Assembly: GCF_902829295.1 (NCBI RefSeq)
Contig: NZ_CADEPL010000055.1
Location: forward strand, 1 to 64,000
Direction: 5' to 3'
Length of the DNA: 64,000 nucleotides
Source of the DNA: Vogesella oryzae
GTDB taxonomy: Bacteria > Pseudomonadota > Gammaproteobacteria > Burkholderiales > Chromobacteriaceae
This document shows positions 134 to 60,441 of this stretch, one piece after another (the stretch's first letter is position 1; every line of letters begins with the position of its first letter). The translations under genes and the position numbers were made by a program. The notes beneath the pieces are model-generated. The model was given only the letters and a program-made list of their open reading frames with translations, had not been told where the DNA came from and made no database searches.

Positions 134-168
134 CGTTGGCCGCATTGCCGCAGGGCATGCGGCCAACT
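134..168. terminator. Hairpin built from two inverted copies of the dispersed motif
   Basis: GTTGGCCGCA at 135-144 pairs perfectly with TGCGGCCAAC at 158-167 across a 13-base loop. There is no long T run after it. It could terminate a gene lying outside the window, in the way paired uptake sequences do in Neisseria. Its role here is inferred. Confidence 0.45.
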
Positions 169-184
169 TGCTTTGCAGCATGGT

Positions 185-214
185 TTGCCCGCGCTTTGGC
201 CGGCAACGTACAAT
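185..214 (+). promoter_or_regulatory. Candidate sigma-70 promoter of gltX
   Basis: TTGCCC at 185-190 and TACAAT at 209-214 are separated by 18 bases, about 38 bases before the gltX start codon. The -10 is good and the -35 is moderate. No competing promoter is obvious. Confidence 0.45.
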
Positions 215-252
215 AGCCGCCTTTACCGATCTTCACAGTTCAGGCGTAGACC

Positions 253-1638
253 ATGATCCGCACCCGTTTTGCCCCCAGCCCCACCGGTTTCCTGCACATC
301 GGTGGCGTGCGCACCGCGCTGTTTTCCTGGGCGTTCGCCCGCAAGAATGCCGGCACCTTCGTGCTGCGCATCGAAGACACCGATCTGGAGCGCTCCACTC
401 CGGAGTCGGTAAAAGCGATTCTGGATGGCATGCACTGGGTAGGCCTGGACTACGACGAAGGCCCGTTCTACCAGACCCAGCGCTTTGACCGTTACAAGGA
501 CGTGATTCAGCAGCTGCTGGCCAGCGGCCACGCCTACCACTGCTACATGAGCAAGGAAGAGCTGGATGCACTGCGCGCACAGCAGGAAGCCAACGGCGAG
601 AAGCCGCGCTACAACCGCGTGTGGCGTCCGGAAGCCGGTAAGACCCTGCCGGCGATTCCGGCCGACGTACAGCCGGTGGTGCGCTTCAAGAACCCGATCG
701 GCGGTTCGGTGGTGTGGGAGGACGCGGTAAAAGGCCGCATCGAGATCAGCAACGACGAGCTGGACGACCTGATCATCGCCCGCCCGGACGGCAGCCCCAC
801 CTACAACTTCTGCGTGGTGGTGGACGACTGGGACATGAACATCACCCACGTGATCCGCGGTGACGACCACGTGAACAACACCCCGCGCCAGATCAACATC
901 CTTAAGGCGCTGGATGCCCCGCTGCCGGTGTACGCGCACCTGCCGATGATTCTCAACGAGAACGGCAACAAGATGTCCAAGCGCCGCGACGCGGTGAGTG
1001 TGGTCGATTACGCCGCCAAAGGCATCCTGCCGGAAGCGCTGCTGAACTACCTGGCACGCCTGGGCTGGGGCCACGGCGACGAGGAATTCTTCAACATGGA
1101 GCAGTTCGTGGAATGGTTCAGCCTGGAGGCGGTAAGCCCGTCCGCCAGCCGCTTCAACCACGAAAAATTCATGTGGCTGAACGCGCAGCACATCAAGGCC
1201 GCCGACAACCAGCGCCTGGCCGGGCTGATTGCCGACCGCCTGGCTGCGGCCAACGTGGATACCAGCCACGGCCCCGCCCTGGCCGACGTGGTGGCGCTGG
1301 TGAAGGAGCGCATCCAGGACCTGAACGCACTGGCACAGGAAGTGGACTACTTCTACGCCAAGCGCGAGCCGCAGGCCGCCGACGTGGAAAAGCACCTGTC
1401 CGGTGACAGCCGCGAACGCATGCTGCGTTTTGCCGACAAGCTGGCCGCACTGGACAGCTGGACTGCCGAGAGCATCCACGAACTGTTCAAGCCATTCTGC
1501 GCCGAGGAAGGCATCAAGATGGGCCAGCTGGGCATGCCGCTGCGCGTGCTGGTATGCGGTACCACCCAGACACCGTCGGTGGATGCGGTGCTGGCACTGA
1601 TCGGCAAGGATGAAGTGTTGCACCGCCTGCGCGCCTGA
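253..1638 (+). CDS. gltX: Glutamyl-tRNA synthetase
   Basis: Charges tRNA(Glu) with glutamate in the cytoplasm. The 461-residue protein has the class I synthetase HIGH-type motif near residues 8-18 ([11 protein letters not shown]) and the KMSKR loop near residue 240, followed by the helical anticodon-binding part. Length matches the usual 460-470 residues. The start is the ATG at 253, because the conserved [11 protein letters not shown] begins immediately after it. It stands alone, with a candidate promoter upstream and a rho-independent terminator just after the stop. One dispersed GCGGCCAAC word lies within the gene at 1246. Confidence 0.98.
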
Positions 1639-1660
1639 TACGGCCTGCTGGCATCACACA

Positions 1661-1684
1661 ACCCCGGTGCGTGCCGGGGTTTTT
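1661..1684 (+). terminator. Rho-independent terminator of gltX
   Basis: ACCCCGG at 1661-1667 pairs with CCGGGGT at 1674-1680 across a six-base loop and runs into TTTT. It lies 22 bases after the gltX stop. Confidence 0.85.
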
Positions 1685-1732
1685 GTTTGCCTGCTGTAAG
1701 GGCGGGTGAGGCTGTGTTGTCGCATCGTCAAG

Positions 1733-1765: not shown

Positions 1766-1797
1766 GTTGAAGTTTCCTGCCGTCGAGTGGGCGGTGC

Positions 1798-4500: not shown

Positions 4501-4503
4501 TGC

Positions 4504-4590
4504 TGGTGCCCAGGAGAAGACTCGAACTTCCACAGTGTTGCCACCGCTAGGACCTGAACCTAGTGCGTCTACCAATTCCGCCACCTGGGC
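4504..4590 (-). tRNA. tRNA-Leu (anticodon CAG), copy 4 in transcription order
   Basis: An 87-nucleotide class II tRNA with encoded CCA. On the minus strand it begins GCCCAGGTGGCGG, has the long variable arm typical of leucine tRNAs, a TTCGAGT T-loop and the anticodon loop TTCAGGT. The anticodon CAG (complement of 4554-4556) reads CTG, the dominant leucine codon in this genome. The sequence appears identical to the three other copies. Confidence 0.95.
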
Positions 4591-4643
4591 TAAAACCTGA
4601 TTGTGTATTGCTGATGTGAGGACACCAACAACAAGAAACTTGT

Positions 4644-4730
4644 TGGTGCCCAGGAGAAGACTCGAACTTCCACAGTGTTGCCACCGCTAGGACCTGAACC
4701 TAGTGCGTCTACCAATTCCGCCACCTGGGC
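4644..4730 (-). tRNA. tRNA-Leu (anticodon CAG), copy 3 in transcription order
   Basis: Same 87-nucleotide sequence as its neighbours, with encoded CCA and anticodon CAG. The 53-base spacer to the next downstream copy is not conserved between units, so the array is a set of duplicated tRNA genes and not a larger repeat. Confidence 0.95.
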
Positions 4731-4769
4731 ACATCGCAAATTTTTATCCGGAGGGCATCAGCGTAGTGC

Positions 4770-4856
4770 TGGTGCCCAGGAGAAGACTCGAACTTCCACA
4801 GTGTTGCCACCGCTAGGACCTGAACCTAGTGCGTCTACCAATTCCGCCACCTGGGC
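4770..4856 (-). tRNA. tRNA-Leu (anticodon CAG), copy 2 in transcription order
   Basis: Identical in sequence to the other copies, with acceptor stem GCCCAGG/CCTGGGC and encoded CCA. The spacer to the next downstream copy is 39 bases. Confidence 0.95.
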
Positions 4857-4885
4857 CTTCCGGATTGTTACAGCTAGCAAAGTAG

Positions 4886-4972
4886 TGGTGCCCAGGAGAA
4901 GACTCGAACTTCCACAGTGTTGCCACCGCTAGGACCTGAACCTAGTGCGTCTACCAATTCCGCCACCTGGGC
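4886..4972 (-). tRNA. tRNA-Leu (anticodon CAG), first copy after the promoter
   Basis: Promoter-proximal member of the four-gene array, identical in sequence to the others. A 29-base spacer follows it. A near-consensus minus-strand promoter lies about 60-90 bases upstream (5033-5060). Confidence 0.95.
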
Positions 4973-5060: not shown

Positions 5061-7675
5061 TGGCTACCAAGCGAAGAAACAGTAAAAATACCCCTTTGCG
5101 CCTGCAAGATCCGCATCTTGCCCGCGAAAAAGCCAAGTACGACAATCCCTTACCTAGCCGCGAGTTTGTGCTCGAGGTTCTCGAAAAAAATGGCGTGCCG
5201 ATGCATGCCGAAGAGTTGGCCGCAGTTTTCCCTATTTACGACAATGAGCTCGACCTGTTCGAGCGCCGCCTGCGCGCCATGGAGCGTGCCGGCCAGATTC
5301 TCATCAACCGCAAGGGCGATATCTGCGTTGCGCAGAAACTGGACCTGATTCCCTGCCGCGTCAGCGGTCACCGTGACGGCTTCGGCTTCGCGATGCGCGA
5401 GGCCGCCGATGGCGACGATATCTTCCTGCCCGAGCGCGAGATGCGCAAAGTGATGCATGGCGACCGGGTCATGGTGCGCGTGGCCGGTGTCGATCGCCGC
5501 GGCCGCCAGGAAGGCCGTATTGCCGAAATTATCGAACGCAACACCACCCGCCTGATCGCCCGCATCTACAAAGAGCGCGGGGTATGGTTTGTGGTGCCGG
5601 AAGACCGTCGCATCAATCACGAGATGCTGGTGGAAGCCGGTGGCGAGGACGGCGCCAAAGATGGCCAGGTGGTGATGGTCGACATCATCGACTATCCGGA
5701 CGAGCATCGTCAGGCCATCGTCAAGGTCAGTGAAGTGCTGGGCGACTATGCCGATCCGGGTATGGAAATCGAGATTGCGCTGCGCAAGCACGACCTGCCG
5801 CACGTGTTCTCCGACGATGCACTGGCGCAAGCCAAGGCTACCAGCCAGAAAGTGGGCAAGCGCGACATCAAGGATCGTGTCGATCTGCGCGATCTGCCGC
5901 TGGTGACCATCGACGGCGAAACCGCGCGCGACTTCGACGATGCGGTCTATGCCGAGAAAAGCGGCAAGGGCTATCGCCTGATCGTGGCGATTGCCGATGT
6001 CAGTCACTATGTGCGTCCGGGCGATGCGCTGGATATTGATGCCCGCGAACGCAGCACCTCGGTGTACTTCCCGCGCCGGGTGATTCCGATGTTGCCGGAG
6101 GAGCTGTCCAACGGCATCTGCTCGCTGAATCCGGATGTCGATCGCTTGTGCATGGTCTGCGATATGCAGATTTCCGCGCGCGGCAAGGTGAAAAAGTACC
6201 AGTTCTACCCGGCGGTGATGCGCTCTCAGCACCGTTTCACCTACACCCAAGTGTGGCAGCTGCTGTCGGAAAATGGCGAACACAAGCTCAAGCCGCAGCT
6301 GGAAACGCTGTATGCCTTGTTCCAGCAGTTGCTGGAGCAGCGCAAGAAGCGCGGCGCGGTGGACTTCGATACCACCGAAACGCAGATGCTATTCGACGAC
6401 AATGGCAAGATCAGCCAGATCGTGCCGGTGGTGCGCAACGACGCGCACCGCCTGATCGAGGAATGCATGCTGGCGGCCAACGTTTGCGCCGCCGAATTCA
6501 TCCTCAAGCACGAGCACAAGGGCCTGTTCCGCGTGCATGAAGGCCCGACGCCGGAGAAGCTGGAGCAGCTGCAATCCTTCCTGCGTCTGAAAGGCCTGCA
6601 GCTGGGCGGCGGCGACAAGCCGACCACCAAGGACTATGCCGCACTGGCCGATGCCGTACGCGAGCGCCCGGATGCACCGATGATCCAGACCATGCTGTTG
6701 CGCTCCATGCAGCAGGCGGTGTACCAGCCGGCCAACCTCGGCCACTTCGGTCTGTCCTACGACGCCTACACCCATTTCACTTCGCCGATCCGCCGCTATC
6801 CGGACTTGCTGGTGCATCGCACTATCAAGGCCATTTTGCTGGACAAGAAGTACAAGCCGGGCAAGTGGGAACAGCTGGGCATGCATTGCTCGATGGCCGA
6901 GCGCCGCGCCGACGATGCCAGCCGCGATGTGCAGTCCTGGCTCAAGACCTATTACATGCGCGACAAGGTGGGCGAAGTGTTCACCGGCAAGATCAGCGCG
7001 GTGGCCGGTTTCGGTATCTTCGTGCTGCTGGATGGCCTGTACGTGGAAGGCATGGTGCACATCTCCGAACTGGGCAAGGATTACTTCCATTTCCACAAGG
7101 AGCAGCAGGCCATCATCGGCGAGAAGAGCGGCCTGAAATACCAGCTGGGGGATGTTGTCACCATCAAGGTGATGCGTGCCGATCTGGATAGCGCGCAAGT
7201 GGACTTTGCGCTGGTCGGGGTTGGCCGCGATGCTGCCGCGCAGGGCGGCGATGTTGCCACCACTGGGCGCCGCCACGGTCGTGATGACAAGTCGGCACAC
7301 AAGCCGGCAGGCAAGGGGCGTGACCAGCGCCGCCAGCCTGCGGCGAAGGCCGCGCCGCAACCGGCCGGCAAGGTTGCCACCAAGCCGGCAAGCAAGGCTG
7401 CGGCCAACGTTGCGGCCAAACCGGTAGCCAAGCCGGCGGCAGCAAGTGCAGTCGCACCGGAGCAGCCTCCGGTTACCGAGGCGCCTGCAGCCAAGCCGCC
7501 GCGCCGTAGCCCGGCCAAGCGCACTCCCGCCGCAGAAACGCCCGTCGCCGAGCTGCCGGCGGCCAAACCCGCCAGCCGTCGCCGCAGCCCGGCCAAACCG
7601 GCGGTTGAGCCCGCGCCACAGCCGGAGCCAACGCCGCCAGCGGCGCCACGCGCCCGCCGCAGCCGCCGTAGCTGA
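5060..7675 (+). CDS. rnr: Ribonuclease R
   Basis: 3'-5' exoribonuclease of the RNB family, processive on structured RNA. The 871-residue protein has an N-terminal winged-helix region, cold-shock-type OB domains, the RNB domain with the metal-site motif ARDFDDAV, and an S1 domain (GKISAVAGFGIFVLLDG) near residues 640-720. A tail of about 110 residues rich in Lys, Ala, Pro and Arg follows. The start at 5060 (MATKRRNSKN) is chosen over the upstream ATG at 4979, which would read through the tRNA promoter. The Shine-Dalgarno sequence is weak. rlmB, often next to rnr, lies about 10 kb downstream here. Confidence 0.97.
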   Translation: MATKRRNSKNTPLRLQDPHLAREKAKYDNPLPSREFVLEVLEKNGVPMHAEELAAVFPIYDNELDLFERRLRAMERAGQILINRKGDICVAQKLDLIPCRVSGHRDGFGFAMREAADGDDIFLPEREMRKVMHGDRVMVRVAGVDRRGRQEGRIAEIIERNTTRLIARIYKERGVWFVVPEDRRINHEMLVEAGGEDGAKDGQVVMVDIIDYPDEHRQAIVKVSEVLGDYADPGMEIEIALRKHDLPHVFSDDALAQAKATSQKVGKRDIKDRVDLRDLPLVTIDGETARDFDDAVYAEKSGKGYRLIVAIADVSHYVRPGDALDIDARERSTSVYFPRRVIPMLPEELSNGICSLNPDVDRLCMVCDMQISARGKVKKYQFYPAVMRSQHRFTYTQVWQLLSENGEHKLKPQLETLYALFQQLLEQRKKRGAVDFDTTETQMLFDDNGKISQIVPVVRNDAHRLIEECMLAANVCAAEFILKHEHKGLFRVHEGPTPEKLEQLQSFLRLKGLQLGGGDKPTTKDYAALADAVRERPDAPMIQTMLLRSMQQAVYQPANLGHFGLSYDAYTHFTSPIRRYPDLLVHRTIKAILLDKKYKPGKWEQLGMHCSMAERRADDASRDVQSWLKTYYMRDKVGEVFTGKISAVAGFGIFVLLDGLYVEGMVHISELGKDYFHFHKEQQAIIGEKSGLKYQLGDVVTIKVMRADLDSAQVDFALVGVGRDAAAQGGDVATTGRRHGRDDKSAHKPAGKGRDQRRQPAAKAAPQPAGKVATKPASKAAANVAAKPVAKPAAASAVAPEQPPVTEAPAAKPPRRSPAKRTPAAETPVAELPAAKPASRRRSPAKPAVEPAPQPEPTPPAAPRARRSRRS

Positions 7676-7861: not shown

Positions 7862-8620
7862 ATGAAACGCAAGTCACCGCGTCGCTTGCTTCGGCGCCGT
7901 TTGCAGCTGTTGCTGCAGCAAATCCGCAGTGCGCTGCCACAGCTGGCCGATACCGCCGTGCCGGAGGCGCTGCACGCCTTGCGCATTGCCCTGCGACAGT
8001 TACGCAGCCTGCTGCGGGTGTTGCAGGCGCTGCCGCAAGGCGAGCTGCTGCCCGCCTTGTCGTTGCAGTTGGCCGCATTTACCCGTGCCAGCAACGACTG
8101 GCGCGACCGCGAAGTGCGCCTGCAGCAGTTGCAGTTGCTGGCGCAGCAGGCCGATAGCCAGCGCTTTGCTGCCTGGCGCCGGCACGAGGCTTTTGCCATC
8201 GGTGCCGGAAAGTTGCAGCTGGCGCGCCAGCAGGGCGAACTGGAGCCGCTGCTGCTGGCCATCGAACAGGCATGCCTGCCGCCGCTGCGCAACAAGTCCG
8301 TCGTTCTGCGGCGGCAGGTGCGGCGGGCGCTGCGAGACAGTCGCCAGCGTTACCGCGAGGCCAGGCGCCGCTGGCAGCAACAGCCGGATAATGACCGTAG
8401 GGTGCATAAAGTGCGCTTGCTGGCCAAGCGGCTGCGCTACCAGGTGGAGGTGTGCCAAGGGCTGCTGGCTAAACGCTGGCAACGGCGTGCCGAGCGTGCC
8501 CGTGCTGACCAGCAGCAGCTGGGCGAGTTGCGCGACCGGCAGCTGCTGCTGCAAAGCCTGCGCCGCGATGCGGTGCCGCTACCGGCGGCATTGCGGCGGC
8601 AGCTGGGGCTGGCGGACTAG
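7862..8620 (+). CDS. CHAD domain-containing protein
   Basis: A 252-residue helical protein with CHAD hallmarks: a conserved histidine with basic residues in HALRIALRQLRSLLRVL near residue 38, and HKVRLLAKRLRYQVEV near residue 180. CHAD domains bind inorganic polyphosphate and are often found with polyphosphate granules or CYTH enzymes; here the domain stands alone. It is highly basic and rich in Leu, Gln and Arg, with no signal peptide or membrane segment. The ATG at 7862 follows a strong GGAGG site, so the longer in-frame extension is rejected. It may be transcribed independently, since it lies after the rnr terminator. Confidence 0.85.
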   Translation: MKRKSPRRLLRRRLQLLLQQIRSALPQLADTAVPEALHALRIALRQLRSLLRVLQALPQGELLPALSLQLAAFTRASNDWRDREVRLQQLQLLAQQADSQRFAAWRRHEAFAIGAGKLQLARQQGELEPLLLAIEQACLPPLRNKSVVLRRQVRRALRDSRQRYREARRRWQQQPDNDRRVHKVRLLAKRLRYQVEVCQGLLAKRWQRRAERARADQQQLGELRDRQLLLQSLRRDAVPLPAALRRQLGLAD

Positions 8621-8652
8621 CTGGCGGCCAACCTTGTCGCCGCTGGCGGCCC

Positions 8653-9468: not shown

Positions 9469-10074
9469 TCACATATCGAGCTTGCTGATCTTGGTGCCTT
9501 CCAGCGTCAGGTTGGCCATCAGCCCGGCATTGGTCATCACGAAGCCGATTACCGGTTGTTGCGCGGTATTGAGATCGACATCGCCATTCGCGCCGATTTT
9601 CACCAGCGCCACCGAGGCATCCACGCCGGCGGTCCAGCCGTTGCCGCGACGGAAGCGGTCCAGCGCGTCCTGGGTCATGAACAGGAAAATGACGGCCTTG
9701 GACTGGGCGCCCAGTTGCCAGCCCAGCGAACCGCTAACCGTCTGGTAGTAGCCGGCAGGTTGGCCGCCAACCCGCAGCGCACCCTTGCCATACTCGGCGC
9801 CAACCACCAGGCCGGCAGCCAGTACCGAGGGGAAAATCAGCACGCCGCGTGCCTTGGCCACCAGCTCGCGGGAGCCGCGGGCATTCTGGTACAGGCGTGG
9901 CAGCGTGGCATCGTAGCCGGCGTCGATCTCCTGCTTCAGGCTGGCGATATTGCCGGCGGTGGCATTCGGCGCCGCCTTGCTGGTGGTCATGTAGCCGCCG
10001 CCTGTCGAGGTGCAGCCGCTGCCCAGCAACGCCGCGACGCTCCCCAGGATAAGCAGGGATAGTTTCAGTTTCAT
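9469..10074 (-). CDS. SYLF/YSC84 domain lipoprotein
   Basis: A 201-residue exported protein with a lipoprotein signal peptide (lipobox near LLGSGC) followed by a SYLF domain, recognisable by AKARGVLIFPSVLAAGLVVG and the GYYQTVSGSLGWQLGAQ region. SYLF (YSC84, DUF500) domains bind lipids in eukaryotes; the bacterial role is unclear. The ATG at 10074 lies eight bases after GGAGG and starts with a typical MKLKLSLL leader. It is on the same strand as the ClpP-like gene but 130 bases from it, so an operon is uncertain. Confidence 0.85.
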   Translation of the reverse strand: MKLKLSLLILGSVAALLGSGCTSTGGGYMTTSKAAPNATAGNIASLKQEIDAGYDATLPRLYQNARGSRELVAKARGVLIFPSVLAAGLVVGAEYGKGALRVGGQPAGYYQTVSGSLGWQLGAQSKAVIFLFMTQDALDRFRRGNGWTAGVDASVALVKIGANGDVDLNTAQQPVIGFVMTNAGLMANLTLEGTKISKLDM

Positions 10075-10185: not shown

Positions 10186-10662
10186 TTAGCGGGTGTGATG
10201 ACCGGTTGGCCGCGCCGTCTGGCGGCGTTGCCACAGTGCGGCCAACATCAGCACCACCACCAGCAGATTGAGCACGAAGGAGCCAATGCTGATGCTGTTG
10301 GGGTGATGCAGCAGTTCGAGCACTTCGAACGGTAGATAAATGGCGCCGCTGGCGGCGGCCAGCACCTCGGCCCAGGCCGCTTCGCGGTACAGGCCGTAGG
10401 CTTCGGCAAACCGCAGCGAGGAGTAGGCGGCGGCGCCCAGCGCGATCAGCAGCAGCTTGCCATTGAGCTGCTGGGCGGCGGTGATGAAGATGCTGGGATA
10501 GTGGGCGGCCGGATTCAGGTGGGCATGCTCGACCAGGCGGATGGCCAGATCGTGCAAGTCCTTGTGCAGCAACAGGAGCAGGCCGGAGGCGCCGGCCAGC
10601 GCCAGCAGCCCCTTGAAGGCTTCGAAGGCGGCTACCGCACGGATGGCCTGGCGTGTCTGCAT
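10186..10662 (-). CDS. DUF2127 family inner-membrane protein
   Basis: A 158-residue protein with about four hydrophobic segments (near residues 14-33, 68-82, 95-115 and 125-145) and the DUF2127 pattern AVAAFEAFKGLLALAG near the N-terminus and EVLAAASGAIYLPFE in the second half. No catalytic function is known for the family. It follows mfd on the same strand after about 70 bases and could be a downstream member of its transcript. Confidence 0.75.
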   Translation of the reverse strand: MQTRQAIRAVAAFEAFKGLLALAGASGLLLLLHKDLHDLAIRLVEHAHLNPAAHYPSIFITAAQQLNGKLLLIALGAAAYSSLRFAEAYGLYREAAWAEVLAAASGAIYLPFEVLELLHHPNSISIGSFVLNLLVVVLMLAALWQRRQTARPTGHHTR

Positions 10663-10735: not shown

Positions 10736-14143
<3,408 letters not shown>

Positions 14144-18349: not shown

Positions 18350-18378
18350 GTTGGCCGCAGGCATTCGCTGCGGCCTTG
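18350..18378. terminator. Motif-containing hairpin between convergent genes
   Basis: TTGGCCGCAG at 18351-18360 pairs with CTGCGGCC at 18368-18375 across a seven-base loop. It lies between the stops of rlmB and the HD-GYP gene, which converge. One arm is the dispersed word; there is no T run. Confidence 0.45.
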
Positions 18379-25275: not shown

Positions 25276-25304
25276 TTGCCTGCTTGCGGCCAACTGCGTA
25301 TAAT
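25276..25304 (+). promoter_or_regulatory. Sigma-70 promoter of the rpsF operon
   Basis: TTGCCT at 25276-25281 and perfect TATAAT at 25299-25304 are separated by 17 bases. A copy of the dispersed GCGGCCAAC word occupies the spacer (25286-25294). Confidence 0.75.
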
Positions 25305-26816: not shown

Positions 26817-26907
26817 GTTTGTTCACCGGCCTGCGGCCAACGTTGTTATGTCGCACTGCACAAAACCAATGTCCTGTTTCTGAACGCAAAATAAGCTGCG
26901 TGCCGGG

Positions 26908-27171: not shown

Positions 27172-27208
27172 TTTGCGGCCAACGTGTTCGCTGGCCGGAG
27201 GAGGGCGC

Positions 27209-37129: not shown

Positions 37130-37268
37130 GCGATGTTGCAATTGTTAATGGCATCGGCATGAAAATGAAATTGCGCATTAATGTCTCCGCGTTTACATGG
37201 CAGGGCGACGGCACCCAGCCGGCCTCCAGGGCCGCTGGTGTGCGGCCAACAACACAACGAGGAGACAC

Positions 37269-38543: not shown

Positions 38544-38623
38544 GCCCCTGCCTGTCCTGACCGGGGCAGCCCCGGCTGCGGCCAACCCTGGCCGTAGCAG
38601 GCGCCGGCCTCGCGGAGAATCCT

Positions 38624-46244: not shown

Positions 46245-47912
<1,668 letters not shown>

Positions 47913-48185
47913 GTTTCTCTCCTTGTTGTATCGGATGCGGCGTTGCTTGTCCTTGTTGGCAAGCGGGTTTTGTTGCGCACGGCCGGACTGTAGCGGGAGA
48001 GAAAATGCTTGTCTGTTGGGGCTGCCCCTTGCGGGGAAACCCTTAACTGCGCCGAAAAGCGGCGATTATTAGCCGATCGCGCACGTCTGCAGCCGGCTTG
48101 GCTGCAGACTGGCAGCAAGGGGCGCCGGATGTGACAAGGCCCGGCTTAGCCGGGCCTTGGACGGGGAGGGTAATGCGGCCAACGT
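47913..48185. other. Intergenic region with two hairpins between lldP and lpxH
   Basis: 273 bases without a gene. It must carry the lldP promoter. TCTGCAGCC/GGCTGCAGA (48086-48108) is a perfect nine-base stem. CAAGGCCCGGC/GCCGGGCCTTG (48135-48159) is a perfect eleven-base stem with a TTA loop, close to the lpxH stop and probably its terminator although it lacks a T run. A dispersed-word copy lies at 48175. Confidence 0.6.
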
Positions 48186-50225: not shown

Positions 50226-50945
50226 ATGAACTTAATCAGACTGTTACCAGGCCTGCTGGCCCTTACCGCGCTGACTGCCTGCGCCTCTACTCCTGCAGCG
50301 CAGGCAGAAGGCCAGCAATGGATGGTAGTGGCTGCCGCACCGGCACCTGCGGCCAACGTTGAAGAGGCGCCGGCGGTGGCTGGCAGCCACGAACAGCTGG
50401 GTATTGCCCGCCAGCCGGTCATGACCCAGAACGGGGTAATGATGGGGGGCGGTTATGTCGGGCCGTTGTCCGATCCGCCGGCACCGAAAGCCGAAACCTA
50501 TAACGCCCTGCGCATCCGCGTGATTGGCCGCGGCGCACCGCCGTCCGGCAAGGATCTGTCGCCGGTGCAGCGTCGCCTGCTGGCGATGCGCGCCGCGCAA
50601 CTGGATGCCTATCGCGCCATTGCCGAACAGGTGCAGGGCTTCAAATTGTCCGGTAACAGCTCGGTAGGCAATCTGGTGGCCAGCAACGACAGCTTCCGCG
50701 TCTATGTCGATGCCTATCTGCGTGGCGTGCGCTTGCTGTCCACCGAGTTCAAGCCGGATGGCAGTAGCGAGAGCATTGCCGAGATGGTGCTGGACGAGGG
50801 CTTCTTCAAAGCTTACCGTACGGCTCTGGCGACCACCGGCAATGTGGCCACCGCGGCCCGTGTCCTGCCGGCCAGCGATGGCAGCAAGCTTGGCTGTACT
50901 GACAGCGGCTGCGTGTATGGCGGGGACTTCTACGTTGCACACTGA
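50226..50945 (+). CDS. flgP: FlgP-like LPP20 lipoprotein
   Basis: A 239-residue outer-membrane lipoprotein with lipobox LTAC at residues 16-19 and an LPP20 domain (LAMRAAQLDAYRAIAEQVQGF). In Vibrio, FlgP surrounds the flagellar basal body with FlgO and FlgT as part of the outer H ring. The ATG at 50226 follows GGAG. The next gene is FlgT-like and the promoter is of FliA type, which supports the flagellar assignment. A partner FlgO gene is not seen in the window. Confidence 0.8.
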   Translation: MNLIRLLPGLLALTALTACASTPAAQAEGQQWMVVAAAPAPAANVEEAPAVAGSHEQLGIARQPVMTQNGVMMGGGYVGPLSDPPAPKAETYNALRIRVIGRGAPPSGKDLSPVQRRLLAMRAAQLDAYRAIAEQVQGFKLSGNSSVGNLVASNDSFRVYVDAYLRGVRLLSTEFKPDGSSESIAEMVLDEGFFKAYRTALATTGNVATAARVLPASDGSKLGCTDSGCVYGGDFYVAH

Positions 50946-50951: not shown

Positions 50952-52256
50952 ATGCAAACATCCAGTCTGTTACGCGCCGCCTTCGGGGCGGCGTTTGTTT
51001 TGCTGGCTGCACCGGCAGTCATGGCCGAGGTATATCAAGCCGAGGGCATGGCCTCGCTGGAGGCCGGCCCGTTGGCCGCGCGGCAAGCCGCCATCGAAGA
51101 CGCCTTGCGCCAGATCGCGATGACCCGCCAGGGCGGCGTGCAAGGCAGCAGCGAAGTAAACAATGGCACGGTGACGGCAGAGAGCCTGATGCTTGGCCCG
51201 GTATCGTTGCCGGGCAAGACGCAGGTAATCAGCGAAAGCCGTCGCGATGGCTTGCTGTTTGTCACCGTGCAGCTGGACACCGATCCGCCGGCAACGCCGG
51301 CAGAGGCGGCTTCCAGCACCGACAAGGCCAGCGCTGCCTGCCAGCGCTCCACGCTGCCACCCGGGCGCTTCCTGGCACGGCGACTGGTTACCACCTATTT
51401 TTCTGTCGAGCAGCCGCAGCAGGCATCGGATCTGGGCAATATTTCTACCTGGTTTCCGAGTGAACTGGTGCGGCGACTCAACCGCCAGCGCGATGTGCAG
51501 GCGCTGGATGCCGGCAATGTGACGCTGTTTCCGGATGGCAAGGTGCAGGACCCGTGGCAGGCCACTGATGCGGTGCGCGATGTTGGCCGCAGGGAGGGTG
51601 TGCAGTTCGTGCTGGCCGGACGCATTATCGATAACGCCATTACCCGCAACGAGCCGCGGGCGACGATGTTCGGCAATGTTAACGATATGCAGCAAGGCGT
51701 GTACTACACCGGGCCGTTTGCCGGCTTGCTGGGGCTGTCGGTGCGGCAGGTGCCGGTAGAGCGACGGCTGGGGGTGGAGTACTGGCTGTATGACGCGATC
51801 AGTGGCGGGGTGCTGCTGCGCGATGTGGTGAATCGCGAAGCACGCGGTGATGTCCATGTCGATTCGGCGCGGCTGTTCGATACCGCTGTTCTGGCACAAA
51901 CCGACTACGGCCGTCTGATCGACCAGACGCTTGGCGGCATTGCCGACAAGGTGCGCGACACCATGCAGTGTTTGCCGTTTACCACCCGTGTCGCGCGGGT
52001 AGAGGGCGACCGTGTCTTTCTGGCGGCCGGCGCGCTGGATGGTCTGGCGGTACGTGATCGGTTGCTGCTGTACAAGCCGCGACCGGCTACCGAAGTACGG
52101 CGTCTGGATGGTCAGGTGCTGGGTGTGCCGGAACAGGTGATTGGTGATCTGGAAATCGAGCAGGTGCAGCCGCGTTTTGCCGTGGCCCGGTTACGCAATA
52201 ACCGTCAGCAGGCGACAGCGGGGGATTGGGTACGGTTTCCGGTTCGGCCCAACTAA
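50952..52256 (+). CDS. flgT: Flagellar H-ring protein FlgT
   Basis: A 434-residue periplasmic protein with a signal peptide ending AVMA. The N-terminal domain YQAEGMASLEAGPLAARQAAIEDALRQ, the middle domain with FVLAGRIID, and the C-terminal domain (LPFTTRVARVEGDRVFLAAG) match FlgT of Vibrio, which builds the H ring around LP rings and recruits stator components. It starts six bases after the flgP stop. A separately placed flagellar structural cluster starts near 60.4 kb. Confidence 0.85.
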   Translation: MQTSSLLRAAFGAAFVLLAAPAVMAEVYQAEGMASLEAGPLAARQAAIEDALRQIAMTRQGGVQGSSEVNNGTVTAESLMLGPVSLPGKTQVISESRRDGLLFVTVQLDTDPPATPAEAASSTDKASAACQRSTLPPGRFLARRLVTTYFSVEQPQQASDLGNISTWFPSELVRRLNRQRDVQALDAGNVTLFPDGKVQDPWQATDAVRDVGRREGVQFVLAGRIIDNAITRNEPRATMFGNVNDMQQGVYYTGPFAGLLGLSVRQVPVERRLGVEYWLYDAISGGVLLRDVVNREARGDVHVDSARLFDTAVLAQTDYGRLIDQTLGGIADKVRDTMQCLPFTTRVARVEGDRVFLAAGALDGLAVRDRLLLYKPRPATEVRRLDGQVLGVPEQVIGDLEIEQVQPRFAVARLRNNRQQATAGDWVRFPVRPN

Positions 52257-52338: not shown

Positions 52339-53331
52339 GTGAGCAAGAAACTGGTAATGATGGCAGTGCTGGCTGCCATGAGCAGCGCGGCGCTGGCGGA
52401 AGAAATCACGGTATATACCGCGCGTGCCGAACAGCTGATCAAGCCCATTCTGGGCGTGTTCGAGCAGGAAACCGGCATCAAGGTCAATGTGGTCAGCGGT
52501 GGCGAAGGCCCGTTGATGGAGCGCCTGAAAGCCGAAGGCTCCAACTCGCCGGCCGATATTTTCATGACCGTGGATGCCGGCAATCTGTGGCAGGCCAACA
52601 ACCTGGGGCTGTTCCAGCCGGTGAAGTCCGCCGCGCTGGCGGCCAACGTCCCGGCGCACCTGCGCGATCCGGGCAATAACTGGTTTGGCCTGTCAGTACG
52701 CGCCCGCACCATTTTCTACAACAAGCAGACCGTTAAGCCGGAGCAGCTGTCCAGTTACGAAGATCTGGCCAGCCCGAAATGGAAGGGCAAGCTGTGTCTG
52801 CGTACCGCCAAGAAGGTGTACAACCAGTCGCTGGTCGGCACCATGATCGGCAATTACGGTGTGGAGAAAACCGAGCGTATTGTCAAAGGCTGGGTCGATA
52901 ACCTGGCGGCACCGGTCTTCCCGGACGACACCAAGATGCTGGAGGCCATTGGCGCCGGCCAGTGCGATGTCGGTATTGCCAACACCTATTACTTCGGTCG
53001 CCTGTTGAAAAAAGAGCCCAACCTGCCGGTGGGGCTGTTCTGGGCTAACCAGAAGCTGGATGGCGTGCACGTGAACGTATCCGGTGCCGGTGTTACCAAA
53101 CATGCCAAGAACGCCAAGGGCGCGGTGAAACTGCTGGAGTGGCTGTCGGCCGAGAAGGCGCAGAAGCTGTTCGCCGACATCGACATGGAGTTCCCGGCCA
53201 ACCCGAAAGTGGCACCGAATCCGGTGGTGGCGTCGTGGGGCAAGCCGAAGCAGGATCTGATCAACGTGTCCGAAGCCGGCTCCAAGCAGGCGCAGGCCGT
53301 GATGCTGATGGATCGTGTTGGCTACAAGTAA
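52339..53331 (+). CDS. fbpA: Periplasmic ferric iron-binding protein (FbpA/FutA family)
   Basis: A 330-residue binding protein beginning at GTG 52339, with a signal peptide ending AALA and the mature start [18 protein letters not shown]. Paired tyrosines ([11 protein letters not shown]) near residue 220 are the usual Fe(III) ligands. A purine-rich Shine-Dalgarno site (AAAGGGA) precedes the GTG. First gene of a classical fbpABC iron importer. Confidence 0.92.
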
Positions 53332-53416: not shown

Positions 53417-55096
53417 ATGCAGTTAGAAAAATCCCTGCCGAGCACTCGGCACTCGCCGCCGCCCGGCGCAGCCATGCCCGCCGGTATCCGCCGGCGCCTG
53501 GCAATCTGGCCCGCTCGACTGCTGGTGCTGGCGATCAGTCTGTTTACCGTAGTGCCGCTGGCGGTGGTGATGACTTCCTCGCTCAGCCCCGATCCCGCCA
53601 TCTGGCAGCATTTGCTGGAATTTGCCTTGCCCGAGTTGCTGCGTAATACGCTGCTGATGCTGCTGGGGGTAACTGCCGGCGTGCTGCTGATCGGCGTATC
53701 ACTGGCCTGGCTGGTGGCGGTGTACCAGTTTCCCGGCCGGCGCTTCTTCAGCTGGGCACTGATGCTGCCGCTGGCGATGCCGGCCTATGTGCTGGCCTTT
53801 GCCCAGGTGGGGATTTTTGAATTTACCGGGCCGATACAGACGCTGTTGCGCCCCCACTTCGACAATATGCGCTGGTTCCCGGAGATTCGTAGCACCACGG
53901 GTTTGCTGCTGGTGATGTCGCTGGCGTTCTACCCCTATGTCTACCTGCTGGCGCGCAACGCTTTCGCCACCATGGGACGACGTGCGCTGGAAGTGGGGCA
54001 GAGCCTGGGGCTGTCGCCGCGGCAGGGTTTCTGGCGCATTGCGCTGCCGATGGCACGGCCGTGGATCATGGGGGGGGTGTTGCTGGTGGTGATGGAAAGC
54101 CTGGCCGATTTCGGCACCGTGGCGGTATTCAACTACGACACCTTTACCACCGCCATCTACAAGGCGTGGTTCGCGCTGTTCTCGCTGGACACCGCCAAGC
54201 AACTGGCCTCGCTGCTGGTGGTGATGGTGTTCGTGCTGTTGCTGCTGGAACAGTACAGCCGCGGCCGCCGTGCCTATTCGCAGGCCGGCCGTACTGCACC
54301 TGCTCCACGGTTGCCTTTGACGGGCTGGCGCGGCTGGGCGGCGAGTGGTATCGCCAGCCTGGTGCTGCTGCTGGCCTTCGTGCTGCCCCTGCTGCAACTG
54401 GGCTACTGGGCGTCGCGTGATTTTGCCAATCAGTTCAGTGCCGATTTCATCGTGTATGCCTGGCGGTCGGTGTTGCTGTCATTGTTGGCCGCAGTGCTGG
54501 TGACGCTGATCGCGCTGGTACTGGCTTATCTGGTGCGCCGCGATGGCGGCGCCATCGTCAGGCTGGCGGCTCGCGTGGCGACGATAGGCTACGCCATTCC
54601 CGGTACCGTGCTGGCGGTGGGGGTGTTCGTGCCGGTAGCGTGGCTGGACAATCAGCTGATTGCCCTGCTTGGCCTCGGCGGCGAGGTGACGGCGGTGTTC
54701 AAGGGAACCTTGCTGGCGATGCTGCTGGCCTTTATGGCCCGGTTTCTGGCGGTAGGGCATTCGGCGGTGGATGCTGCGATGAACCGCATTACCCGCAGTC
54801 ACGACGAGGCAGCACGCAATCTGGGGGTGTCCGGGTGGGCGTTGTTGTATCGGGTCTATTTGCCGCTGCTGTCGGGCGGACTGTTCACCGCGATGCTGAT
54901 GGTGTTTGTCGACGTGATGAAGGAAATGCCGATCACGCTGATGACGCGGCCGTTCGGCTGGGACACGCTGTCGGTGCGGGTCTACAACATGACCAGCGAA
55001 GGCATGTGGGATCAGGCGGCGCTGCCGGCCATCGCCATTGTGCTGGTGGGGCTGTTGCCAACCATTTTGCTGTCGCGTCAACGGGATGTTGCCTGA
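53417..55096 (+). CDS. fbpB: Ferric iron ABC transporter permease (FbpB)
   Basis: A 559-residue fused two-half permease with about 12 membrane helices. Each half has an EAA-type loop: residues near 195 (LEVGQSLGLSPRQGFWRIALP) and near 470 (RNLGVSGWALLYRVYLPLL). It contacts FbpC. Its stop shares bases with the FbpC start (TGATG). A G8 run occurs at 54070-54077 within coding sequence. Confidence 0.93.
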   Translation: MQLEKSLPSTRHSPPPGAAMPAGIRRRLAIWPARLLVLAISLFTVVPLAVVMTSSLSPDPAIWQHLLEFALPELLRNTLLMLLGVTAGVLLIGVSLAWLVAVYQFPGRRFFSWALMLPLAMPAYVLAFAQVGIFEFTGPIQTLLRPHFDNMRWFPEIRSTTGLLLVMSLAFYPYVYLLARNAFATMGRRALEVGQSLGLSPRQGFWRIALPMARPWIMGGVLLVVMESLADFGTVAVFNYDTFTTAIYKAWFALFSLDTAKQLASLLVVMVFVLLLLEQYSRGRRAYSQAGRTAPAPRLPLTGWRGWAASGIASLVLLLAFVLPLLQLGYWASRDFANQFSADFIVYAWRSVLLSLLAAVLVTLIALVLAYLVRRDGGAIVRLAARVATIGYAIPGTVLAVGVFVPVAWLDNQLIALLGLGGEVTAVFKGTLLAMLLAFMARFLAVGHSAVDAAMNRITRSHDEAARNLGVSGWALLYRVYLPLLSGGLFTAMLMVFVDVMKEMPITLMTRPFGWDTLSVRVYNMTSEGMWDQAALPAIAIVLVGLLPTILLSRQRDVA

Positions 55097-56139
55097 TGAG
55101 TTTGCTTGAATTGGTATCGGTGTCGCAGTGCTATGGCGACAAGAAAATCATCGACCAGCTGTCGTTAGCGCTGGAGGCCGGCGAAATCGGCTGCCTGCTG
55201 GGCAGTTCCGGCTGTGGCAAGACCACGGTGCTGCGCTGTATTGCCGGGTTTGAGCCGCTGCTGGACGGCGAAATCCGTCTGGACGGGCGTGGCATTGCCA
55301 GTGCTGCGGCCAACGTGCCGGCGCATCAACGCGAAATCGGCATGGTGTTTCAGGACTACGCGCTGTTTCCGCATTTGTCGGTAGTGGAGAACGTCGGCTT
55401 TGGCCTGGGCGGCCTGTCGCGTAGTGCACGCGCGCGCCGTGTGGCCGCCATGCTGGAGGTGGTAGGGTTGGCCGCATACGGTAAGGCCTATCCGCACGAG
55501 TTGTCCGGCGGCCAGCAGCAGCGGGTGGCGCTGGCACGCGCGCTGGCACCGCAACCGCGCTTGCTGTTGCTGGATGAGCCGTTTTCCAATCTGGATGTCG
55601 ACCTGCGCGAGCGCTTGTCACGCGAGGTGCGCGAGATTCTGAAGTCGCAAGGCACGACCGCCATTCTGGTGACGCACGATCAGCACGAAGCCTTTGCCAT
55701 GGCTGACAAGGTGGGAGTGATGGCGCAGGGCCGGTTGCAGCAATGGGCTTCGCCCTACGAGCTGTACCACGAGCCGCAGACGCGTTATGTGGCTGACTTC
55801 ATCGGCCAGGGAGCCTTCGTGCCGGGCCGGGTGACCGGGCCGCGCTGTGTCGCGCTGGAGCTGGGCGAGTACTGCAGTGCGGTGCCGCGACAGTTTGTGG
55901 TCGGGGATGATGTCGACGTGCTGTTGCGGCCAGACGACGTGGTGCATGACGATGGCAGCGAGGTGAAGGCGCTGGTGCTGGGCAAAGTGTTCCGTGGTTC
56001 GGAATTTCTTTACACCCTGCAGCTGGCATCCGGTCGCAGCGTGCTGGCGCTGGTGCCCAGTCATCACAATCACGCCATTGGTGAAGCCATCGGCATCCGG
56101 CTGGAGCTGGAGCATCTGATTGCGTTTCGCCAGCAGTAA
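55096..56139 (+). CDS. fbpC: Ferric iron ABC transporter ATP-binding protein (FbpC)
   Basis: A 347-residue ATPase with Walker A GSSGCGKTTVL, signature LSGGQQQRVALARAL, Walker B LLLLDEPFSNLDVD, and a C-terminal TOBE-like domain. The ATG at 55096 overlaps the permease stop by one base. It powers Fe(III) import with FbpA and FbpB. Confidence 0.94.
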   Translation: MSLLELVSVSQCYGDKKIIDQLSLALEAGEIGCLLGSSGCGKTTVLRCIAGFEPLLDGEIRLDGRGIASAAANVPAHQREIGMVFQDYALFPHLSVVENVGFGLGGLSRSARARRVAAMLEVVGLAAYGKAYPHELSGGQQQRVALARALAPQPRLLLLDEPFSNLDVDLRERLSREVREILKSQGTTAILVTHDQHEAFAMADKVGVMAQGRLQQWASPYELYHEPQTRYVADFIGQGAFVPGRVTGPRCVALELGEYCSAVPRQFVVGDDVDVLLRPDDVVHDDGSEVKALVLGKVFRGSEFLYTLQLASGRSVLALVPSHHNHAIGEAIGIRLELEHLIAFRQQ

Positions 56140-57206: not shown

Positions 57207-59222
57207 ATGGTTGTTACCTATCCCGGCAGCCCGTTCCGGCTGCACCAGCCTTTTCCCCCCGCGGGTGATCAGCCGACGGCGATTGCCAGTCTGGTCGAAG
57301 GGCTGTCCGACGGCCTGAGCTACCAGACCTTGCTGGGCGTCACCGGTTCCGGCAAAACCTACACCATGGCCAACGTGATTGCGCAGACCGGCCGGCCGGC
57401 CATTGTCATGGCGCACAACAAGACGTTGGCCGCACAGCTTTACAGCGAAATGCGCGAGTTCTTTCCGGAGAACGCCGTCGAGTATTTCGTCTCCTACTAC
57501 GACTATTACCAGCCGGAAGCTTACGTTCCCAGCCGCGATCTGTTCATCGAGAAAGACTCCAGCATCAACGAGCATATCGAGCAGATGCGGTTGTCGGCGA
57601 CCAAGAGCATTCTGGAACGGCCAGACTGCGTGATCGTGGCCACCGTGTCAGCGATCTACGGTATCGGTGACCCTACCGAATACCACCAGATGATTTTGCA
57701 CCTGAAAGAAGGTGAGACCACGCCGCAGCGCGAGATCATCAGCCGGCTGACGGCCATGCAGTACGACCGCAACGATATGGATTTCGCCCGCGGTACTTTC
57801 CGCGTGCGCGGCGACGTGATCGATATCTTCCCGGCGGAAAGCAACGACACCGCGCTGCGGGTGAGCCTGTTTGACGACGAAGTCGAGACGCTGACGCTGT
57901 TCGATCCACTGACCGGTGTCACCAAGCAAAGAGTTGGCCGCTATACGGTTTATCCGGGCAGTCACTATGTGACGCCGCGCGATACCGTGCTGCGTGCCTG
58001 CGAGAAGATCAAGACCGAGCTGCGCGAGCGCATCGAGTGGTATCACAAGGAAGGCAAGCTGGTAGAGGCGCAGCGTATCGAGCAGCGCACGCGCTTCGAT
58101 CTGGAAATGCTGTACGAGATGGGCTTCTGCAAGGGCATTGAGAATTACTCGCGGCATTTCTCCGGTCGCGCGCCCGGCGAAGCGCCGCCGACGCTGATCG
58201 ACTATCTGCCCAAGAACGCGCTGATGTTCATCGATGAAAGCCATGTCACCGTGCCGCAGGTTGGGGCGATGTACAAGGGCGATGCCGCGCGCAAGCAGAA
58301 TCTGGTGGATTACGGCTTCCGCCTGCCATCCGCGGTGGATAACCGGCCGCTGAAATTCCATGAATTCGAAAAACTGATACCGCAGGCCATTTTTGTGTCC
58401 GCCACACCGTCTGATTACGAGGCCAAGCATGCCGGCCAGGTAGTGGAGCAGGTGGTGCGGCCAACGGGGCTGGTGGATCCGGTAATCGTGATTCGTCCGG
58501 TGTCCACCCAGGTAGACGACCTGCTGTCGGAAATCCATCTGCGCATCGAGCGCGGCGAGCGGGTACTGGTTACCACGCTGACCAAGCGCATGGCGGAGCA
58601 GCTGGCGGATTACTACACCGAGCACGGCATCAAGGTGCGCTACCTGCACTCCGACATCGACACCGTGGAGCGGGTGGAAATCATCCGCGACCTGCGGCTG
58701 GGGATGTTCGATGTGCTGATCGGCATCAACCTGCTACGCGAGGGGCTGGATATTCCAGAGGTAAGCCTGGTGGCGATTCTCGATGCCGACAAGGAAGGCT
58801 TTTTGCGCAGCGAGCGCAGCCTGATCCAGACCATCGGCCGCGCCGCGCGCAACCTCAACGGCTTGGCGCTATTGTACGCCGATCGCATCACCGACAGCAT
58901 GCGGCGCGCCATCGACGAAACCGAGCGTCGCCGTAGCAAGCAGCTGGCCTTCAATGCCGAGCACGGCATCGTGCCGCAAGGTATCAACAAGAAGATCAAG
59001 GACATCATCGACGGCGTGTATCACGACAAGGCGGCTGACCGGAAGGCATTGGCCGAAGATGCACGCATCGCGATGATGGATGAAAAAACGCTGGCCAAGG
59101 AAATTAAGCGCCTGGAAAAAGCCATGCTGGAGGCTGCGCGCAATCTGGAGTTCGAGCAGGCGGCAAAGCTGCGTGACGAGCTGAAGGCGCTGAAAGAGAA
59201 AGCCTGGTTCAGTGAGTTGTGA
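57207..59222 (+). CDS. uvrB: Excinuclease ABC subunit B
   Basis: Damage-verification helicase of nucleotide excision repair. The 671-residue protein has Walker [15 protein letters not shown], the beta-hairpin region [16 protein letters not shown] (MFIDESHVT), the helicase motif [12 protein letters not shown] and a C-terminal UVR domain ([17 protein letters not shown]) that binds UvrC. It works with UvrA and, on transcribed strands, with Mfd. Confidence 0.98.
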
Positions 59223-59244
59223 TACCGCAAGGCAAGGGAAAATC

Positions 59245-59715
59245 ATGGCGCGCAAAATACGGGTGCTAATGGTGTGCATGGGCAATATCTGCCGTTCGCC
59301 GACCATGGAAGGCGTGATGCGCGCCCGATTGCAGCACTACGGACTGGAGACGCTGGTGGAGGTGGATTCCGCTGGCACGCACGACTACCACGTTGGCCGC
59401 GCGCCGGACCCGCGTAGTGTGGCGGCTGCCGCACGGCGGGGTTATGACCTGAGTGCGTTGCGCGCCCGGCAGGTCTCGCCGGCGGACTTTGCCGAATTCG
59501 ACTACCTGCTGGCGGCCGATTGCGACAACCTTGCCAATCTGGAGCGGGTGCGTGGCGGTCGAGGCGTGGCGCCGAAGCTGCTATTGTCGATATTGGGGCA
59601 ACCGGCAGAGGTGCCGGATCCTTACTATGGCGGGCCGCAAGGCTTCGAGCAGGTGCTGGACCTGGTCGAGGAAGCCTGCGATGCCTGGTGCCGCCGCCTG
59701 CAGCAGTCGTTGTAA
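59245..59715 (+). CDS. Low-molecular-weight protein-tyrosine phosphatase
   Basis: A 156-residue cytoplasmic phosphatase with the P-loop CMGNICRS (Cys-x5-Arg-Ser) near residue 12 and the general-acid loop VPDPYYGG near residue 125. The ATG at 59245 follows AAGGGA. It lies 22 bases after uvrB and could be co-transcribed. Whether it acts on tyrosine kinases of exopolysaccharide synthesis or on small substrates is unknown. Confidence 0.93.
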   Translation: MARKIRVLMVCMGNICRSPTMEGVMRARLQHYGLETLVEVDSAGTHDYHVGRAPDPRSVAAAARRGYDLSALRARQVSPADFAEFDYLLAADCDNLANLERVRGGRGVAPKLLLSILGQPAEVPDPYYGGPQGFEQVLDLVEEACDAWCRRLQQSL

Positions 59716-59745
59716 TCCAAGATGTCGTCGTCACGAGAGAACGCC

Positions 59746-60441
59746 ATGTCGCAAACCAATAAGACGCTCGACAGCAAATCGATGTCGGTGGCCCCTAGCC
59801 ACTCCGCCGATGTGATCCTGCCTCGCCAGCCCGGCAGGATGGCACTGGGGCGGCAGCCGCTGATCGCGATCGGTTCTTCCACCGGAGGTACCGAGGCTTT
59901 ACGGGTGCTGTTGACCAGCTTGCCGGCCGAAATGCCGCCGATTGTGATTACCCAGCATATGCCGGAAATGTTTACCAAGTCGTTTGCGGCGCGGCTTGAT
60001 TCCTTATGCAAGCTGACAGTGAAAGAGGCGGACGATGGCGAGCGCCTGCTGCCGGGGACGGTCTACATCGCCCCGGGGCACTCGCATCTGCTGGTCAAGT
60101 CGACCAATGGCATCGGCTATGCTGTCTGTCTGCATCAGGGGCCGCCTGTTAACCGGCACAAACCTTCTGTTGATGTGCTGTTCCGCTCGGCGGCCAACGT
60201 TGCCGGCAAGCACTGTATCGGCGTGATCCTTACCGGCATGGGGCGCGATGGCGCGGCGGGTATGCTGGAATTGAAAGAAGCGGGGGCATTGAATATCGCG
60301 CAGGATGAGGCGTCTTGCGTGGTGTTTGGTATGCCCAAGGAAGCGATTGCCATGGGCGGGGTGCATGAAGTGCTGCCCCTGCAGGGAATCGCCAGTCGGT
60401 TGATGGCACTGTGTGCCAACCGTCAGGGAACTGGCGGCTGA
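59746..60441 (+). CDS. Stand-alone CheB-type methylesterase domain protein
   Basis: 231 residues with only the CheB methylesterase/glutamine deamidase domain. The catalytic triad motifs are [11 protein letters not shown] (Ser), VITQHMP (His) and [12 protein letters not shown] (Asp). A receiver domain, which would control activity in normal CheB, is absent and is replaced by a short, disordered N-terminus of about 40 residues. The start at 59746 follows GAGA; ATG at 59722 is an alternative. It lies directly upstream of an FlrC-type flagellar regulator with only eight bases between, so it belongs with flagella and chemotaxis. Confidence 0.85.

Follow-up and report, generated by a model that had tools for sequence, protein, structure and literature searches.

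The pilin ComP of Neisseria is the known receptor for the DNA uptake sequence (DUS), a word by which outside DNA is recognized. Such words have been described for two families, the Neisseriaceae and the Pasteurellaceae (PMC12616744), and a CTG core at positions +6 to +8 is given as essential to DUS (PMC3630211). Frye et al. (2013) place DUS in permissive intergenic positions, with inverted pairs tied to terminators. They saw no obvious DUS in Lutiella nitroferrum 2002, Pseudogulbenkiania sp. NH8B, Laribacter or Chromobacterium, and their BLAST search for ComP in C. violaceum found none; in their account, DUS arose once the lineage had separated from Chromobacterium (PMC3630211). Here we analysed a stretch of 64,000 nucleotides from Vogesella oryzae, a member of the Chromobacteriaceae (contig NZ_CADEPL010000055.1, positions 1 to 64,000; this whole stretch is called the window below), over which the 9-mer GCGGCCAAC is dispersed. 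The word, for which the preferred reading is TGCGGCCAACnT (on the opposite strand, GTTGGCCGCA), is very probably the DNA uptake sequence of Vogesella and one dialect of a Chromobacteriaceae uptake system with the core CGGCCAAC.

The Vogesella word resembles the DUS of Neisseriaceae in being a 10- to 12-mer that occurs about once per kilobase on both strands, in and between genes, with inverted pairs, with dialects that follow clades, and in genomes that encode a ComP-type pilin. It is unlike DUS in lacking the CTG core, in belonging to another family with GC-rich genomes, and in that only the C-terminal Cys pair of ComP is kept in the pilin. With the uptake signal sequence (USS) of Pasteurellaceae it shares a length of about 9 bp, a dense distribution and dialects, and it happens to contain GCGG, the inner core of USS (PMC12616744). 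However, the words of sister genera described below, TTCGGCCAAC and CTCGGCCAAC, lack GCGG, no AT-rich downstream tracts accompany the Vogesella word, and the Pasteurellaceae belong to another class, with a different proposed receptor (ComN/PpdA). Beyond Frye et al., a search of open-access journal papers found nothing on point about these words or about uptake or transformation in these taxa; Table S1D of PMC3630211 may list TTCGGCCAAC.

Abundance and codon independence of the word

The window contains 69 exact copies of GCGGCCAAC, 36 on the + strand and 33 on the − strand, spanning positions 135 to 60198. It is the most frequent 9-mer of the window, and a leading T precedes 38 of the 69 copies. 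By our own gene model, 58 copies lie in genes and 11 between genes, and dinucleotide shuffles of the window give 2.1 copies on average (maximum 5 in 100 shuffles). These numbers bear out an earlier note on this DNA, made from the letters alone, which had described more than 60 copies on both strands, in genes and intergenic sites, with few expected by chance. The whole genome (3,415,129 bases in 58 contigs, of which contig 55 includes the window) holds 1,734 + 1,756 = 3,490 copies, and 79 of the reversed word, which served as a control.

The use of the word in coding DNA was analysed in a 460-kb sample composed of the window and 396 kb from four other contigs. This sample has 519 copies, which our hexamer-based gene model assigns to coding DNA (384), intergenic DNA (133) and edges (2); because the model overlooked the ComP-like gene described below, some true coding copies may be scored as intergenic. 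When synonymous codons were shuffled within genes 100 times, 44.7 coding copies were obtained on average (s.d. 6.3, maximum 61) versus the 381 observed, and a synonymous shuffle that keeps junction dinucleotides gave 37.6. The reversed word occurs 10 times in coding DNA, versus 6.7 and 10.5 in the two types of shuffle. The coding count is thus far above these controls, in line with the selection at the DNA level that the earlier note had suggested and proposed to check by codon shuffling.

Three tripeptides named in that note, Ala-Ala-Asn, Leu-Ala-Ala and Val-Gly-Arg, do represent common coding uses, accounting for 151, 120 and 57 of the 384 coding copies. Specifically, 148 of 167 Ala-Ala-Asn tripeptides are spelled with GCGGCCAAC (20.4 expected), as are 57 of 74 Val-Gly-Arg (2.2 expected) and 120 of the 337 Leu-Ala-Ala that follow a G (18.1 expected). 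Ala-Ala-Asn itself (167) outnumbers both Ala-Asn-Ala (53) and Asn-Ala-Ala (59) about threefold. Given this surplus and the excess of spellings with the word, GCGGCCAAC appears to shape even protein sequence.

The comparison set comprised 101 genomes: our own, 12 other Vogesella (which with our own make the 13 Vogesella referred to below), 48 from other genera of the same family and 40 from other families of the order. Four of the genus labels used below have names: g1 is Vogesella, g2 Pseudogulbenkiania, g5 Gulbenkiania and g7 Chromobacterium. All 12 other Vogesella genomes carry GCGGCCAAC in 2,312–3,461 copies. The 48 same-family genomes of other genera have 77–313 copies, with 57 in one genome that is 61% complete, and the 40 genomes of other families have no more than 187, against up to 171 for the reversed control. 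In many same-family genomes GCGGCCAAC is two- to four-fold above the reversed word, which is therefore an imperfect control.

Dialects in sister genera

A k-mer search without a preset word, covering 40 kb per genus, revealed that sister genera carry words of their own, TTCGGCCAAC and CTCGGCCAAC. We refer to these as the TT and CT dialects, respectively, and to GCGGCCAAC of Vogesella as the TG dialect. As a positive control, the same method recovered the DUS-type word GCTGCCTGAA in Stenoxybacter (Neisseriaceae), which is of the simDUS type. The core CGGCCAAC is common to all three dialects, together with an enriched T two bases after it, and the dialects differ at the two bases that precede it.

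In whole-genome counts, TTCGGCCAAC is abundant in eight of the 48 same-family genomes, namely those of g3 (2,168 and 579 copies), g10 (1,851), Gulbenkiania (1,245), Pseudogulbenkiania (1,104, 893 and 183) and one of the ten genomes of g6 (G017, 1,368). The 1,104 copies are those of P. ferrooxidans 2002 (G013), presumably the same strain as the Lutiella 2002 mentioned above. CTCGGCCAAC is abundant in two of the 48 genomes, both of g4 (1,940 and 1,590). The three dialects are nearly mutually exclusive among the genomes counted: the 13 Vogesella contain 8–34 copies of TTCGGCCAAC and 14–40 of CTCGGCCAAC, the 38 remaining same-family genomes (19 of Chromobacterium, 9 of g6, 6 of g8 and 4 of g9) do not exceed 62 and 92, and in the 40 genomes of other families the maxima are 34 and 58. 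None of the three words is comparably enriched in the 19 Chromobacterium genomes. In the 40 other-family genomes we detected no word with the CGGCCAAC core (0–4 copies each, in one 20-kb stretch for 37 genomes and a shorter one for three, so that a rarer word could escape).

As far as smaller samples show, a similar anatomy is seen outside our own genome. Coding copies exceed synonymous shuffles in six other Vogesella (222 vs 27.9), in the TT dialect (75 vs 3.6) and in the CT dialect (31 vs 2.3), and the Vogesella word in Chromobacterium coding DNA does not (6 vs 7.0). Close pairs are inverted rather than direct in all three sets (37:0, 4:0 and 2:0). The uptake-type reading of the earlier note is therefore well supported, both by the codon shuffles and by distant genomes, since 38 of the 48 other genomes of the family and the 40 of other families show no comparable enrichment of any of the three words. 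Two points go beyond that note: GCGGCCAAC belongs to a set of three or more dialects built on the core CGGCCAAC, and a ComP-like pilin is encoded.

Several other words were encountered in these searches. A g3 genome (G023; L246, L247) has 165 copies of CTCGGCCAAC beside its 579 of TTCGGCCAAC, possibly a mixed or shifting dialect. G017 (L197, L198, L244, L245) may be a two-dialect genome, since it has an excess of TTCGGCAAAC (10 vs 0.3 expected) in addition to TTCGGCCAAC; Simonsiella muelleri is reported as such a genome (PMC3630211). In g4 (L193, L194, L248), CTCGGCCAAG is enriched beside CTCGGCCAAC (11 vs 0.5 expected), and in the g10 genome G021 (L205-L206) TGCTTAAGCA is over-represented (8 vs 0.1 expected). 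Samples of the word-less genera, 40–80 kb from each genome but 20 kb from two of g9, yielded no comparably strong word other than the candidate CCCTACTCCC in G033 (g9, L243), with 11 copies in 20 kb where about 0 are expected. The palindrome TGCTGCAGCA is over-represented in word-less genomes of g6 (L230-L232; 18 vs 2.1 expected) and g7 (L199-L200, L233-L234; 12 vs 0.4 expected). G088 has 25 copies of ACCGTCTCGA (L274:7802-17453), in many cases spaced by multiples of 75, and these probably belong to a gene for a repeat protein.

Placement of the copies and competing explanations

In the 460-kb sample, GCGGCCAAC is denser in intergenic DNA (3.09 per kb) than in coding DNA (0.92 per kb), and the intergenic density is highest between convergent genes (6.93 per kb), followed by co-directional (2.98) and divergent genes (1.12). 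The flanks show T at −1 in 63% of copies, T at +11 in 57% and A at +12 in only 2%. Counted in 5-kb windows, the spacing is more regular than Poisson (variance 3.98, mean 5.67; p = 0.017).

One could regard the word as a target that a DNA methylation or nucleoid-protein system recognizes across the genus, and that is maintained at high copy number for regulation or repair. It occurs throughout the genus, is neutral as to strand, recurs about once per kilobase and contains GGCC, all of which would suit such a target, and the HIP1 of cyanobacteria is a very abundant short word that is also present in coding DNA. However, HIP1 is palindromic and the Vogesella word is not. Beyond the first base, no single-base variant in Vogesella is more than 3.6-fold enriched, versus 57-fold for TGCGGCCAAC, which indicates that nine contiguous bases are specified. 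Moreover, the dialects shift at two bases before the core, and gene 3′ ends and inverted pairs are favoured, as in DUS. Judged from the word itself, this explanation is improbable.

A recombination (Chi-like) or chromosome-segregation (KOPS-like) word would likewise be of high copy number and chromosome-wide. Chi and KOPS words are strongly biased in orientation along the replichore, whereas the copies of GCGGCCAAC are evenly oriented in all five contig stretches of 64–116 kb that were counted (36/33, 51/55, 71/68, 56/62 and 43/44), extending beyond the window the lack of strand bias first noticed there. Neither dialects nor inverted pairs would be expected of such a word, and this role is highly unlikely.

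Equally hard to credit is a transcription terminator or a spread mobile repeat (REP/MITE-like), although the arrangement of close copies might suggest one. Neighbouring copies come within 60 bp of each other in 52 cases, with the two inverted in 48 of these and direct in 4, and 12 of the inverted pairs abut exactly, forming the 18-bp palindrome GCGGCCAACGTTGGCCGC. The 48 inverted pairs lie between co-directional genes (14), between convergent genes (11; 25 with the former), between divergent genes (1) and inside predicted genes (22). However, 384 of the 519 copies are intragenic, and the flanks are weakly conserved beyond a few bases, where a mobile element would bring its flanks along. A clear T run follows few of the pairs examined, so that a terminator role for the inverted pairs is only partly supported. 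A by-product of codon, amino-acid or mutational bias, to which a GC-rich word in a GC-rich genome, the common use of Ala-Ala-Asn and a mild excess over the reversed word in many same-family genomes might point, is refuted by the synonymous shuffles (381 vs 44.7), the low reversed-word controls and the at most 313 copies in the 88 relatives outside the genus, many of them equally GC-rich, and its probability is close to nil.

Relation to DUS

In a gapless alignment to GCTGCCTGAA, GTTGGCCGCA and GTTGGCCGAA agree with it at 6 and 7 of 10 positions, and the A at +10 is kept; this position is A in the TG and TT dialects and G in the CT dialect. At the place of the CTG core, GTTGGCCGCA, GTTGGCCGAA and GTTGGCCGAG have CCG, and none of the three contains CTG or CAG, in agreement with the lack of a CTG core that had been remarked on at the outset. 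Because the CTG core is absent, we class GCGGCCAAC as a DUS-type uptake word and not as DUS. By their A/C exchange at +9, the TG and TT dialects differ from each other in the way in which kingDUS differs from king3DUS (PMC3630211). The 7/10 agreement of GTTGGCCGAA with simDUS GCTGCCTGAA is reached by 3–4% of random and shuffled words, and the 6/10 of the other two dialects is reached by chance in 16–17%. This comparison of letters is at most suggestive of kinship of the words with DUS, and common ancestry of the dialects, among themselves and with the DUS of Neisseria, is inferred.

A ComP-like pilin and the uptake machinery

The candidate receptor in our genome is a minor pilin of 141 aa (G000:C22:14321-14743), the neighbours of which are a FimT-like gene, aroB, aroK and pilQ, O, N and M (apart from the pilins, these names were read from the sequence by eye). 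One clear copy is present in 13 of 13 Vogesella genomes, and it lies beside aroB in all 13. Our copy has 41–56% identity to those of the 12 other Vogesella and the adjacent AroB 74–87% over the part compared, indicating that the pilin gene evolves fast and keeps its place throughout the genus. The best solved relatives of the candidate alone are Neisseria ComP structures (2m3k, 1.5e-6; 5hz7, 6.8e-6), and a profile of 15 family members again places 2nba (2.9e-20), 2m3k (3.2e-19) and 5hz7 (1.2e-18) ahead of other pilins. The family and Neisseria ComP have in common a WPxLP motif and a C-terminal Cys pair. This pair is the one invariant pair in the 15 aligned pilins, drawn from 30 ComP-like loci; the other ComP cysteines are absent, and nothing in these 15 sequences corresponds to the Cys of FCIR in 2nba. 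Neisseria ComP has two disulfides (PMC12061091).

A tree was built from 26 of the 30 ComP-like loci (G001, G011, G029 and G032 were left out; the G001 protein has the motif as WPALP), with long-branch warnings for G021, G017, G000 and others. On this tree, the four groups TG, TT, CT and no word need three changes, which is the minimum, and none of 200 shuffles is as low. The TT dialect does not form one clade, and TT alone needs three changes. ComEC was identified by profile in 90 of the 101 genomes, including 11 of the 13 Vogesella.

The ComP-like minor pilin of the type IV pilus would bind the word in outside DNA, the pilus would draw this DNA in through PilQ, and ComEC would pass one strand inside, where it would recombine. 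DNA with the word would enter more often, so that copies born by mutation could spread and persist. By this route, the word may have built up to about one per kilobase on both strands, densest between genes, above all behind convergent genes, and often as inverted pairs.

Other pilins were considered and set aside. The first ComP_DUS match (L003) is part of a cluster of the pilE-fimT-pilV type, and among solved structures it is related to major and PilE pilins rather than to ComP. Matches of 81 bits in other Vogesella were judged to be of the PilE type from the gene order of one locus (L111). A FimT/GspH-like pilin gene (L004:875-1423) directly precedes the ComP-like pilin in Vogesella; FimT of Legionella is counted among DNA-binding minor pilins (PMC12616744).

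Site turnover and points against an uptake role

Of 38 words that could be aligned with the nearest species, 18 are identical there, versus 32% of random 9-mers and 6 of 31 words with one mismatch, and we judged this too weak to serve as proof of selection. One word of 10 is kept to V. fluminis, and 5/11, 5/13, 5/9 and 5/13 are kept to four other species. At one site in mfd (position 12056 in our sequence), both Gulbenkiania and P. ferrooxidans have a TT word. Loss and gain of words at a steady number would fit biased uptake with recombination, and not a fixed local role.

Several observations weigh against the uptake reading. Conservation of sites is weak and individual sites turn over, and in the small part that could be aligned no Vogesella site coincides with a TT site of Gulbenkiania or Pseudogulbenkiania. 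A T run follows few of the inverted close pairs, and 22 of the 48 are located inside predicted genes. The likeness to DUS is 7/10 at best, with P about 0.03–0.04 for an orientation and alignment chosen after the words had been seen.

The remaining points concern the proposed receptor. The Pfam family ComP_DUS is above cut-off in 92 of the 101 genomes, with or without words, and was dropped as a receptor marker for being unspecific; in our own genome it matches seven of eight prepilin-like genes above cut-off, and the candidate pilin scores 18.6 bits against a cut-off of 27.3. Chromobacterium, which has no word, also has relatives of the candidate pilin. The groups in the tree are genera, so that descent alone could explain the fit as well as co-evolution. 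ComEC was not found by the profile search in the Vogesella genomes G002 and G009 and is present elsewhere with or without the word, so that the uptake machinery alone does not predict the word.

Copies of the word in the window

The intergenic copies are an inverted pair at 135–143 (− strand) and 159–167 (+), single copies on the + strand at 8624–8632, 25286–25294, 26833–26841, 27175–27183, 30424–30432, 37242–37250, 38578–38586 and 48175–48183, and one on the − strand at 18350–18358. Two inverted pairs are in coding DNA, at 10205–10213 (−) with 10238–10246 (+) and at 19727–19735 (+) with 19762–19770 (−). The gene mfd carries four copies, at 11444–11452 (+), 12836–12844 (−), 13298–13306 (−) and 13760–13768 (+); the encoded Mfd shares 88% identity with its Vogesella fluminis counterpart, with Chromobacterium, Pseudogulbenkiania and Gulbenkiania next at about 80%.

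Other coding copies on the + strand are found at 1246–1254, 1913–1921, 6473–6481, 7400–7408, 15846–15854, 19685–19693, 20816–20824, 21946–21954, 23859–23867, 28408–28416, 31741–31749, 33906–33914, 36191–36199, 39723–39731, 42055–42063, 43284–43292, 44934–44942, 47328–47336, 50349–50357, 52639–52647, 55306–55314, 58457–58465 and 60190–60198. Those on the − strand are at 5215–5223, 7220–7228, 8068–8076, 9759–9767, 16544–16552, 17102–17110, 17498–17506, 21348–21356, 23201–23209, 24411–24419, 27497–27505, 27696–27704, 28306–28314, 30091–30099, 35020–35028, 36820–36828, 40825–40833, 46446–46454, 46521–46529, 47694–47702, 51071–51079, 51582–51590, 54484–54492, 55467–55475, 57425–57433, 57933–57941 and 59392–59400. 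The six positions given as examples in the earlier note are all correct, that at 18350 being a − strand copy. Four tRNA-Leu (CAG) genes lie in tandem on the − strand at 4504–4972.

Implications for the Chromobacteriaceae

An earlier exchange of comP between Neisseria did not succeed in demonstrating that the specificity for the word switches with it (PMC3868556). On balance we lean towards a history in which ComP-guided, word-specific uptake is older or wider than the Neisseriaceae, and in which the Chromobacteriaceae have a parallel system with a CCG-type core (GTTGGCCGMA) that was lost or never gained in Chromobacterium. Vogesella would then have acquired a new word in step with changes in its ComP, with copies filling its genome afresh at other positions, and the CTG core would be a local convention rather than a requirement of ComP.

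With at least three dialects, diverged relatives of ComP and several word-less genera, the Chromobacteriaceae would be a third family with uptake-type words. The word would be a self-recognition tag for DNA of the own kind, in a family believed until now to have no such tags. The family could serve as a natural experiment on the co-evolution of receptor and word, on the switching of dialects and on what is lost first. The host genera named here are mostly bacteria of water or soil, which would make the question testable outside human pathogens.

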